Shown here piece by piece: positions 1 through 40,567 of a DNA stretch of 64,000 nucleotides. How positions within the stretch are numbered: position 1 is the first letter of the stretch; each line of letters starts with the position of its first letter. The notes beneath the pieces were generated by a model that did no database searches, was not told where the DNA came from, and saw only the letters and a program-made list of their open reading frames with translations. This DNA comes from Pyrinomonadaceae bacterium (lineage in GTDB: Bacteria > Acidobacteriota > Blastocatellia > Pyrinomonadales > Pyrinomonadaceae). Where the stretch lies: assembly GCA_019186825.1 (NCBI GenBank), contig JABARP010000010.1, positions 297,037 through 361,036 of the forward strand, read 5' to 3'. A program made the translations under genes and the position numbers.

Positions 1-66
1 TTCATCCGTGTATTTCTTCAGCGGATAGACAATAACATCCGCGATATCTTTATCAATAAAGGTCAT
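1..66 (-). CDS. dTDP-4-dehydrorhamnose 3,5-epimerase-like protein, 5' end only
   Basis: The first 22 codons of a minus-strand gene that runs off the left edge. The start ATG (66-64) overlaps the stop of the GxxExxY gene in an ATGA arrangement. The visible N-terminus includes DVIVYPLKKYTDE, the usual opening of RfbC-type cupin epimerases, in which the next residues are normally RG. Such enzymes epimerise dTDP-4-keto-6-deoxy sugars, which fits the RfbA-like gene upstream in the same direction. The call rests on about 20 residues, so the family is likely but not proven. Confidence 0.55.
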   Translation of the reverse strand, partial: MTFIDKDIADVIVYPLKKYTDE

Positions 67-446
67 ATATCAAGCTCGTTAACTACTCTTCTAATTCCGT
101 TCTTTAATAGGACAACATTAAAGTTTATCAGCAACCCAAGCTTTGTACCCGAGAGCCGCAGATACGTCAACAACTGCGAGAGATGAACGTCGCCGAGGCC
201 TTCGCAGGACTTAACCTCGACGATGAATTTGTTCTCAACAAAAATATCCAGCCGATATCCACAATTCAGATGCACCTCTTTGTAAGACAGCGGAAGTCCC
301 CTTTCCTGCTCAACGCGCAAACCGGTCTTCTGAATCTCATATGCGAGACATTCTCTATAGGTCCTTTCGAGCAGGCCGGGCCCGAGGGCTTTGTGCACTT
401 TGATCGCCTTCTCAATGACGATGTGGGAGATGGCATTTTCATCCAT
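63..446 (-). CDS. GxxExxY family protein (PD-(D/E)XK nuclease-like fold)
   Basis: A 127-residue protein carrying the family signature GLLERTY near residues 24-30, which gives the family its name. A PD-(D/E)XK-like core follows: RLDIFVENKFIVEVKS supplies the Asp and the ExK of that nuclease fold (Pfam PDDEXK_3). The family's function is unknown. It is translationally coupled (ATGA) to the epimerase gene that leaves the window, and the region just upstream of its start is a tandem repeat array. Both features separate the nucleotidyltransferase and epimerase genes of the polysaccharide locus, suggesting a later insertion. Whether it acts as a nuclease is not shown by the sequence. Confidence 0.85.
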   Translation of the reverse strand: MDENAISHIVIEKAIKVHKALGPGLLERTYRECLAYEIQKTGLRVEQERGLPLSYKEVHLNCGYRLDIFVENKFIVEVKSCEGLGDVHLSQLLTYLRLSGTKLGLLINFNVVLLKNGIRRVVNELDI

Positions 447-533
447 AATCTTTCGAGGTTTCCTTCGTGACCTTTGCGTCTAGCGCTGTCGCACGACCGC
501 CAGGCGACTTTAAGTTTTCTCCGAAGCCCGTTA

Positions 534-1380
534 ACGCAAAGGCCGCAAAGGGAAGACGCAAAGAAACGCAAGGTGCGATCGGCATATTCTACTCCAGAAG
601 CGCCTCGCGAATGGTAGGCCAACCTTCAACACAGACATGCGTCTTCTGCTCTTCGTGCCCTTTGCGTCTTAAACTTTGCGTTCTTTGCGTTAAGTCTCGC
701 CCTTGCCAACGTAAGGCCACAAAAGGGAAGACGCCAAGAACGCAAGGTGCGATCGGCATATTCTACTCCAGAAGCGCCTCGCGAATGGTAGGCCAACCTT
801 CAACACAGACAAGCGTCTTCTGTTCCTTCGCGCCCTTTGCGTCTTAAACTTTGCGTTCTTTGCGTTTACTCTCGCACTTGCCAACGTAAGGCCGCAAAGG
901 GAAGACGCAAAGGCCCGCAAAGGGAAGACGCAAAGAAACGCAAAGGTGCGAACGAGATATTTTACTCTGCAAGAGCCTCGCGAACGGTCTAGCAACCTTC
1001 AACCCAGACAAGCGTCTTCTGTTCCTTCGCGCCCTTTGCGTCTTAAACTTAGCGTTCTTTGCGTTTACTCCCGTACTTGCCAACGTAAGGCTGCAAACGC
1101 GATGGCTCCCGCACTTTTCAACGCAAAGGCCGCAAAAGGAAGACGCCAAGAACGCAAAGGTGCGAACGAGATATTTTACTCTACAAGAGTCTCGCTAACG
1201 GTCAAGCAACATTCGAACATAAACAAACTCTTCTGGTTTCCTTCGTGCCCTTTGCGTCTTAAACTTCGCGTTCTTTGCGTTAACTCTCGCACTTGCCAAC
1301 GCGAGGCCGCAAACGCGTTGACTCCTGCACTTTTCAACGCAAAGGCCGCAGACGGAAGACGCCAAGAAACACAAAGGCTT
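534..1380. repeat. Tandem array of about 4.5 CTTTGCG/CGCAAAG-bounded repeat units
   Basis: This stretch holds no credible gene. Four diverged units of roughly 175-215 bp start near 534, 709, 883 and 1082, and a partial fifth starts near 1300. Each unit opens with AACGCAAAGGCCGCAAAGGG-like sequence and closes with CCCTTTGCGTCTTAAACTT and TTGCGTTCTTTGCGTT, so its ends are inverted repeats. They enclose a core of about 90 bp (GTGCGATCGGCATATTCTAC in units 1-2; GTGCGAACGAGATATTTTAC in units 3-4). The cores of units 1 and 2 are almost identical, suggesting recent duplication. Open reading frames here are low-complexity artefacts. Confidence 0.9.
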
Positions 1381-18169: not shown

Positions 18170-18372
18170 CGTTGCAGAAAGCGCTCTTTGAACGAGCCCG
18201 AATCTTTGCGCCCTTTGCGTCTTCTCTTTGTGTTCTTTGCGTTTATCGGTTCGTTTTTGACGCAAAGCCCGCGAAGCGAAGCCCCGCAAAGGCCGCGAAG
18301 ACAGCCAACCGTTGCAGTAGCCCCGCACGGAGTAAGGGCCCTTGGCGAGAACTTTGCATTTTTTGCGTTTAC
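18170..18372. repeat. Dispersed CTTTGCG/CGCAAAG repeat copy
   Basis: This gap between arsM and the next gene holds CCCTTTGCGTCTTCTCTTTG and TTCTTTGCGTTTA, then CGCAAAGCCCGCGAAGCGAA and CGCAAAGGCCGCGAAG. The arms are inverted repeats related to the ends of the 534-1380 units. It also contains the motif GTTGCAGTAGCCCCGCACGG followed by AGTAAGGG (18311-18342). A close copy lies at 19630-19832 in the same orientation. Confidence 0.8.
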
Positions 18373-19629: not shown

Positions 19630-19832
19630 ACCGTTGCAGAGGCCCGCACGGAGTAAGGACCGCTGAACGAAGCCCGAACCTTTGCGCCCCTCGCGTCTTC
19701 TCTTTGTGGTCTTTGCGTTAAACGCACCGCATCTAAGGCAAAGGCCGCAAAGCGAAACCCCGCAAAGGCCGCGAACACAGGCGACCATTGAAGAAACCGC
19801 CGCTGCAGAAGCCCGCACGTAGTAAGGGCTCA
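19630..19832. repeat. Second copy of the dispersed CTTTGCG/CGCAAAG repeat
   Basis: Same modules and orientation as 18170-18372: GTTGCAGAGGCCCGCACGGA, then AGCCCGAACCTTTGCGCCCC, TCGCGTCTTCTCTTTGTGGT, CTTTGCGTT, and then GGCAAAGGCCGCAAAGCGAA and CCGCAAAGGCCGCGAA. It ends with a second GCAGAAGCCCGCACGTAGTA motif. Together with the first copy it brackets the DUF4386/DUF6326 pair. Confidence 0.8.
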
Positions 19833-21207: not shown

Positions 21208-23258
<2,051 letters not shown>

Positions 23259-23280
23259 GAAAACTTTTGGTGCATAGGTG

Positions 23281-39768: not shown

Positions 39769-39900
39769 CCTTCGCGTTCGAAACCCGCCCGCGTCAGTGA
39801 AGGCCCGGCGGTGCTTCCACTGCCTGTTGCAACCGAAAAATACCGACGCGGATATCTCTCTTTGCGAACTCTGCGGCCTTTCCATCGCGGCCTTGCGTCT

Positions 39901-40214
39901 TCTGCCGATCGAGCTTCACGTTATTTCGCTTTGCACTCTTCACGTTGATCCAAACGCAAAGAACGCAAAGGTCATCGCAAAGATCTCAAAGACGCTACCG
40001 CGAAATCCTTCCCCTTCGCGTCCTCTGCGGGCTTCGCTTCGCGAACTTTTGCGTTTTCTGCTTTTCGCATTTACGTTATTTCTCTTTGCACTCTTCACGT
40101 TGATCCAAACGCAAAGAACGCAAAGGCATTTCGTAAAGATCGCAAAGACGCTGCCGCGAGATTCGACCCTTCGCGTCCTTTGCGGGCTTCGCTCTGCGAC
40201 CTTTGCGTTTCCTG
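39901..40214. repeat. Two tandem copies of a 154-bp CTTTGCG/CGCAAAG repeat
   Basis: The copies share ACGTTATTTC, CTTTGCACTCTTCACGTTGA, TCCAAACGCAAAGAACGCAA, CGCAAAGACGCT, CCTTCGCGTCCT and TGCGGGCTTCGCT at a period of 154 bp (anchors at 39919 and 40073). They differ in about a fifth of bases by eye. Related CTTTGCG units continue left to about 39850. No gene is credible in 39720-40840. Confidence 0.85.
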
Positions 40215-40221
40215 CCGAACC

Positions 40222-40286
40222 GTCGCCGAGCGGAAAGCTTCGCTTTTCCGACACGCTCACCAAAGCACCTCGGCGGCGAAGCCGCC
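40222..40286. repeat. Two-hairpin module, copy 1
   Basis: GCCGAGCGGAAAGC-TTCGC-TTTTCCGACACG forms hairpin one and is followed by CTCACC. The second hairpin is GGCGGC-GAA-GCCGCC (40272-40286). A matching module lies at 40579-40644. A degenerate CCACGCCG-TAAA-CGACGTGG stem follows at 40310-40329, resembling the 19881 array. Confidence 0.75.
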
Positions 40287-40498
40287 ACGCTCGGACCTCA
40301 ACGCATGTTCCACGCCGTAAACGACGTGGCTAAGCTAAGACGCTTTGCGCTTTGTTGAAACAACAAGTCGCCCGCGAAAAAACTCAAACGCTACGCGTTT
40401 TCCCAAACACAAACGCCCGCCAAAACCAAAAATTAAATTGTCAAACATCAACCAACCACAGAAAGAATATCTGACAACTGCGCCCATTTGAACCCCAA

Positions 40499-40567
40499 AA
40501 TGCACGGAATGTATGAAAATGCACAAAACGCACAAATTGATACAAAATGCACAGAATGCACAAAAAT
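40499..40567. repeat. ATGCAC micro-repeat tract
   Basis: Copies of AAATGCAC follow one another: AAATGCACGGAATG, GAAAATGCACAAAACGCACA and CAAAATGCACAGAATGCACA. The spacing of about 9-10 nt is similar to that inside the CGCAAAG repeats (CGCAAAGAACGCAAAG). No coding sense is visible. Confidence 0.6.

Follow-up and report, generated by a model that had tools for sequence, protein, structure and literature searches.

The window analysed here is a 64,000-nucleotide stretch of a Pyrinomonadaceae genome, and at its start a gene and a repeat array part two sugar biosynthesis genes. On the minus strand, an rfbA-like glucose-1-phosphate nucleotidyltransferase gene (1409–2143) is followed by the repeat array (531–1377), a gene for a 127-aa GxxExxY protein of the PD-(D/E)XK nuclease superfamily (63–446), and the start of an rfbC-like dTDP-sugar epimerase gene (1–66), which runs past the window edge and measures 159 aa in L003, our label for the GxxExxY locus of the window. 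The epimerase is RmlC-like (PF00908, 53 bits) and scores under the TIGR01221 cut-off. The GxxExxY stop codon and the epimerase ATG overlap as ATGA at 63–66. An earlier annotation made without database searches (the sequence-only reading) had proposed that rfbA and rfbC are normally neighbours, that they are separated here by the GxxExxY gene and about 4.5 tandem palindromic CGCAAAG units, and that the gene, PD-(D/E)XK-like, is coupled to the epimerase through ATGA. These proposals were borne out by the overlap and by the profile matches and intact catalytic residues described below. The two genes lie 0–82 nt apart in most of 23 same-genus genomes, and thus the split locus is not common to all relatives. 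Elsewhere in the window, an ordinary TPP riboswitch lies on the minus strand at 23155–23268, upstream of a thiC-like gene.

The GxxExxY protein matched TIGR04256 with 136.6 bits (cut-off 35) and PF13366 (PDDEXK_3) with 133.8 bits (cut-off 22). G24, E27, Y30, D67, E77, and K79 were invariant in 53 homologs, and the ExK core noticed in the sequence-only reading was identified as E77/K79. The AlphaFold2 model was confident (pLDDT 93.4) and had an alpha/beta, PD-(D/E)XK-like fold. Foldseek matches to this model were weak (best E 4e-3), with Cas4 SSO0001 and lambda exonuclease as the best ones and restriction enzymes also present, and a sequence search of the PDB gave chance-level RelE matches only. 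By its residues and modelled fold, the protein is a predicted PD-(D/E)XK nuclease. GxxExxY genes are intact across wide divergence; pseudogenes are nonetheless frequent. A defence or phage origin was unsupported because there was no PADLOC or PHROGs match. To our knowledge, GxxExxY genes are common in many bacteria, often with several per genome, and we know of no function for them. In open-licence PMC papers we found the name GxxExxY only in passing and no description of the gene together with iteron palindromes.

The array consists of four palindromic units of 160–185 nt and one left arm, with TRF scores of 667–763. Each unit is laid out as TTAACGCAAAG.. CGCAAAG.. CGCAAAG, a non-coding core of about 90 nt, and CTTTGCG.. 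CTTTGCG.. CTTTGCGTTAA; the array, its unit order, and its inverted CGCAAAG/CTTTGCG ends were as first described. Unit 1 (531–693) has TTAACGCAAAGGCCGCAAAGGGAAGACGCAAAG and CTTTGCGTCTTAAACTTTGCGTTCTTTGCGTTAA around its core of about 90 nt and folds at 538–680 (z −3.85). Unit 2 (709–868) has a partly degenerate left arm and folds at 728–866 (z −3.24), unit 3 (882–1067) has a duplicated 23-nt piece of the left arm, and unit 4 (1119–1284) folds at 1121–1268 (z −1.74). A half unit with the left arm only (1335–1377) adjoins rfbA. The array contains 22 of the 67 CGCAAAG/CTTTGCG heptamers of the window, and no Rfam family covered it. A partial iteron arm of repeat family D5 (TTTCCTTCGTGACCTTTGCGTCT, 459–481) lies 5' of the GxxExxY start, with its CTTTGCG at 472–478, 26 nt upstream of the start. 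Inverted-arm alignment found no matching arm 3' of the gene (score 17), and therefore the window copy is not flanked on both sides.

In the window genome (3.2 Mb), dozens of sites have CGCAAAG pairs arranged as compact palindromes or tandem arrays; the pair pattern had 143 matches versus 4 for the reversed pattern. Three further ones lie within the window: a dispersed gene-less palindrome of reversed polarity at 18204–18291 (loop of about 18 nt; z −4.03), another dispersed gene-less palindrome at 19680–19767, and a second tandem array of the family with a 155-nt period at 39860–40349, beside which a short CAAAATGCA tandem repeat was seen at 40496–40565. The dispersed compact palindromes in the genus (L240–L246, L250, and window 18204–18291) have a CTTTGCG arm, a loop of about 20 nt, and a CGCAAAG arm, a polarity opposite to that of the arms around GxxExxY genes, and such reversed arms were also seen around a few GxxExxY genes (L066, L085, L086, and L109). 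The repeat thus occurs genome-wide, but of the three GxxExxY genes in this genome just one is placed in a CGCAAAG array, and a larger sample of loci was therefore needed.

We examined 80 GxxExxY loci of other bacteria in GTDB genomes, mostly Bacteroidota. In this sample, which is biased to relatives of the window gene and hence to the CGCAAAG type, the density of CGCAAAG/CTTTGCG reached 4.8–6.2 per kb in the 200 bp nearest the gene and was 0.1–0.4 per kb beyond 500 bp, with a flat profile for the reversed control motif. Many of the genomes used in the analysis are fragmented. The usual pattern was CGCAAAG upstream (+) and CTTTGCG downstream (−), which places the GxxExxY gene between inverted arms. 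The sequence-only reading had suggested a link between protein and repeats and had looked to co-location across genomes to decide it; CGCAAAG was present at 30–40 times the background within 200 bp of GxxExxY genes, and in location the link is stronger than proposed, since the gene normally sits inside the palindrome. It did not extend to copy number, since across genomes of the genus the numbers of GxxExxY genes and CGCAAAG pairs were uncorrelated (rho 0.21, p 0.22, n = 37). The value for all 60 genomes (rho 0.47) is confounded by lineage, and one genome, G022, had 56 CGCAAAG pairs without any GxxExxY gene.

For a motif-blind arm test, the 250–300 nt upstream of each gene were aligned to the reverse-complemented 250 nt that follow it, using 550 size-matched ORFs from the same contigs as controls. 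The median score was 39 for GxxExxY loci versus 19 for control ORFs (p = 1e-29), and 82 of 142 loci, relatives of the window genome included, exceeded the control 99th percentile. About 40% of the loci fell under the both-arm threshold, including two of the three copies in the window genome. Matched inverted ends around an ORF, a hallmark of mobile elements, are thus found for the family but not for the window's own copy.

Each arm has three to four short iterons, in many cases with TTAAC or TTCAC on their outer side; the iterons follow the pattern C-R-C-N-N-A-G/T at a spacing of about 9 nt. A typical element has an outer TTAAC-like edge, three to four iterons, the GxxExxY ORF, and an inverted copy of the same iterons. 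The heptamer varies by element (CGCAAAG, CGCAGAG, CACAGAG, CACAAAG, CACAGAT, CACGAAT, CACGGAT, and others), and CGCAAAG is one type among many; L001, the best copy of the window genome and an intact one, has clean CACAGAG arms. The same iteron consensus was present at both ends in 67 of 88 elements, versus 13.7 after shuffling (maximum 24). In the window genus, the iteron tracked the protein clade (12 changes versus 23.1 shuffled, minimum 18); in the mostly Bacteroidota set alone, the association was not significant (21 versus 22.8 changes). Proteins at least 70% identical but located at different sites shared the iteron in 23 of 27 pairs (versus 18% of all pairs), where the 27 pairs come from few lineages and are not fully independent, and a check for inverted-flank cases found none among them. 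Because similar elements at unrelated sites keep the same iteron arms, the arms travel with the gene. No two GxxExxY proteins within a genome exceeded 65% amino-acid identity, the nearest kin being in other genomes, and near-identical copies marking recent multi-copy transposition within one genome were not found.

Median element length is about 530 nt, and the median distance from the upstream stop codon to the element start is 7 nt. Of 34 independent sites between co-directional genes, 33 had the element in the sense orientation of the operon; insertion sites between divergent and convergent genes also occur. At one Flavobacterium junction, the element stands in opposite orientations between species, and elements at the trpS-plsC site were seen in either orientation. 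Orthologous elements oriented oppositely relative to the same flanking genes were observed in two sets (L049/L050 versus L060/L062/L044, and L134 versus L213), which points either to inversion at the arms or to a symmetric insertion site.

Comparison across species revealed that an orthologous site can hold the complete element, a derivative with an internal deletion, a palindrome lacking the gene, a single arm, or no insert at all. The SufS-like junction, which holds L001, carries a full element in six genomes. Internal deletions at this junction left the two arms plus the initial codons of the gene in G018, and two gene ends with degenerate arms in G002; these are gene-less derivatives of a larger element, as in MITEs. 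Gene-less palindromes are present in G010 and G004, the latter with CGCAGAG iterons, and a single arm is left in G022 and G024. G016 has a clean empty site, where the flanking genes overlap as ATGA (..AAAGATATGAAAGC..), and the same site is filled in G000 and others; in several filled genomes, the upstream gene ends in a TAA stop that comes from the element edge. Occupied and vacant versions of an orthologous site, as expected of a mobile element, were thus found both here and at the rfbA-rfbC junction. A search of 199 Flavobacterium genomes showed a full element of about 550 nt at the hemW junction in some species, and about 20 of the junctions read had gene-less palindromes of several iteron types, some with abutting arms. 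Some gene-less Flavobacterium palindromes (L299 and L300) have the order A-B-A'-B' instead of A-B-B'-A', so that two stems interlock, with an exact 16-nt match of B and B' in L300.

The rfbA-rfbC junction has a GxxExxY gene with full CGCAAAG arms in G030 and G033, a GxxExxY gene beside a CGCAAAG array but lacking the 3' arm in G002 and the window genome, and a 23S rRNA intervening-sequence protein (IVP) gene between GAGTCT-type arms in G018 and G014. The four GxxExxY copies at this junction may have a single origin or independent ones. The window protein was 69% identical to a Melioribacter/Bacteroidota copy and 61% identical to the copy that G002 has at this junction, which, judged from these identities, fits horizontal movement or fast divergence, the tree favouring neither. 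No target-site duplication was seen at the rfbA-rfbC and SufS-like junctions, where the flanks are too diverged to define one, and the loci and genomes compared gave no sign of excision, circles, or transposition.

Three of the five best-scoring control ORFs in the arm test were IVP genes, and the test had therefore found a second family by itself. These genes, which encode a four-helix bundle (23S_rRNA_IVP, PF05635/TIGR02436; L143, L144, and L170–L198), are flanked by inverted iterons of types unrelated to those of GxxExxY (AGTCTGGGA, GGCAGTA, GGCGAGT, GTAAATCG, and others), and 16 of 29 IVP loci were above the control threshold. A nuclease is thus not required for the iteron-framed arrangement, because the non-nuclease IVP genes share it. 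In 37 genomes of the window genus, the copy numbers of GxxExxY and IVP genes were correlated (Spearman 0.74, p 2e-7). The 23S intervening sequence of Coxiella has heptameric repeats beside an S23p ORF, inverted repeats, and excision by RNase III (PMC4990558), and by analogy it seems to belong to the IVP class as a member located in rRNA. Other genes were also seen at junctions that hold GxxExxY elements in other species, namely a GIY-YIG nuclease gene at the Flavobacterium hemW site (L313) and an NYN-domain gene at the rfbA-rfbC site (L145).

The GxxExxY gene and the palindromes form one element family, with lineage-specific ends, variable site occupancy, gene-less derivatives, and a strong sense bias. 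They look like one family because the gene usually lies between mirror-image clusters and gene-less copies occur elsewhere, and the window array is best read as a decayed, amplified member of it. We consider it probable, though well short of certain, that GxxExxY genes form the coding portion of minimal mobile elements some 0.5 kb long, whose nuclease acts on its cognate palindrome, and that the window locus has decayed. We infer a role of the nuclease in element movement: the PD-(D/E)XK protein would act as a dimer that recognises its cognate iteron palindrome and cuts it, and cutting would promote copying or spread of the gene-bearing element. The protein may also act in trans on gene-less palindromes, as RAYTs are thought to act on REPINs. 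At the window locus, an old insertion at the rfbA-rfbC junction would later have lost its 3' arm, its gene would have become translationally coupled to rfbC, and tandem gene-less CGCAAAG units would have gathered on the 5' side.

Of the other explanations, an RNA cassette resembling intervening sequences is rather unlikely. The arms would form a double-stranded stem in the operon transcript, the insert would be tolerated in rRNA and mRNA because RNase III cuts the stem, the ORF would be a passenger or an RNA-binding factor, and spread would take another route. The 33:1 sense bias at independent sites between co-directional genes argues for such a cassette, as do the unprompted emergence of IVP genes among the control ORFs with the best arms, the IVP cassettes at the same rfbA-rfbC junction, and the Coxiella sequence with its heptamers, inverted repeats, and RNase III excision (PMC4990558); the invariant nuclease residues, the way iterons stay with a GxxExxY lineage at new sites, and the divergent and convergent insertion sites would be left unexplained. 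The sense bias and the parallel with IVP cassettes, whose protein is no nuclease, are why we keep an RNA-level reading alive. That the gene is instead a homing endonuclease gene seems improbable. Here the intact palindrome would be the target, and the nuclease would cut gene-less palindromes so that repair copies the gene into the centre and destroys the target. This would suit a gene in mid-palindrome with the same palindrome uninterrupted at the same site in other species, the either-way orientation at trpS-plsC expected for a symmetric target, the PD-(D/E)XK fold, and the GIY-YIG gene at one Flavobacterium site. However, similar elements with the same iteron arms occur at unrelated sites, and the gene-less palindromes are equally explicable as deletion products, as seen in G018 and G002.

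We regard it as very improbable that GxxExxY is a domesticated host gene, with the iterons serving as its operators and the palindromes elsewhere as regulatory sites, and with no role in mobility. Intact genes over wide divergence, co-directional with operons and with iterons near the start codon as candidate operators, are consistent with such a gene, but an operator would not predict a matched inverted copy downstream, and presence, deletion, and absence differ among close species, with pseudogenes frequent. Coincidence, that is, ordinary intergenic repeats beside a random gene, is hardly credible. The window locus without a 3' arm and the one in three GxxExxY genes of its genome near CGCAAAG repeats could be read that way; for the family, coincidence is excluded by the enrichment and by the inverted-arm and matched-iteron controls, and the site states at the SufS-like junction also contradict it.

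Extending the mobile-element reading, we suggest tentatively, as a possibility that falls somewhat short of probable, that GxxExxY genes with iteron palindromes, together with IVP and perhaps GIY-YIG and NYN cassettes, are unrecognised phylum-wide mobile elements of less than a kilobase, in which a PD-(D/E)XK nuclease specific to the iteron palindrome of its lineage would mobilise itself and gene-less palindromes and thereby generate many of the CGCAAAG/CACAGAG-type repeats of bacterial genomes. The link to iteron palindromes gives the GxxExxY protein a testable substrate and would account for a kind of short repeat that is widespread. Through it, the long-standing puzzle of 23S rRNA intervening sequences becomes connected with a far larger group of cassettes, and the many iteron-protein pairs would be a natural dataset for the evolution of specificity in a small nuclease.

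Free-standing homing endonuclease genes are small nuclease genes in palindromic or near-palindromic sites, often promoterless and with site polymorphism. GxxExxY elements differ from them in that the arms move with the gene to new sites. With MITEs and other non-autonomous derivatives they share gene-less palindromes and internal-deletion derivatives at orthologous sites, whereas for the GxxExxY palindromes neither an autonomous transposon from a known family nor a target-site duplication was identified. The 23S rRNA intervening sequences with an S23p/IVP ORF (PMC4990558; PF05635, TIGR02436) likewise carry one small ORF framed by heptamer-based inverted repeats, and IVP cassettes are found at the intergenic sites that GxxExxY elements use, in other species even between rfbA and rfbC; they differ in a four-helix bundle in place of a nuclease, in unrelated iterons, and in being known mainly inside rRNA genes. 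GxxExxY elements, with another protein and an intergenic site, are not members of that class. The REPIN-RAYT system differs in its Y1/HUH transposase and its GTAG-tagged REPs, as opposed to a PD-(D/E)XK protein, iterons of about 9 nt, and several genes and iteron types per genome, the GxxExxY system being known here from sequence alone. Because its protein is PD-(D/E)XK and not Y1/HUH, GxxExxY is not a member of REPIN-RAYT, and the analogy is functional only. The resemblance nonetheless covers palindromic doublets dispersed genome-wide, a distinct repeat type beside each protein gene, gene-less palindromes, and tandem clusters (PMC3116915), and Bertels and Rainey found the most closely related RAYTs in different genomes (PMC3116915), the same pattern as that of GxxExxY.
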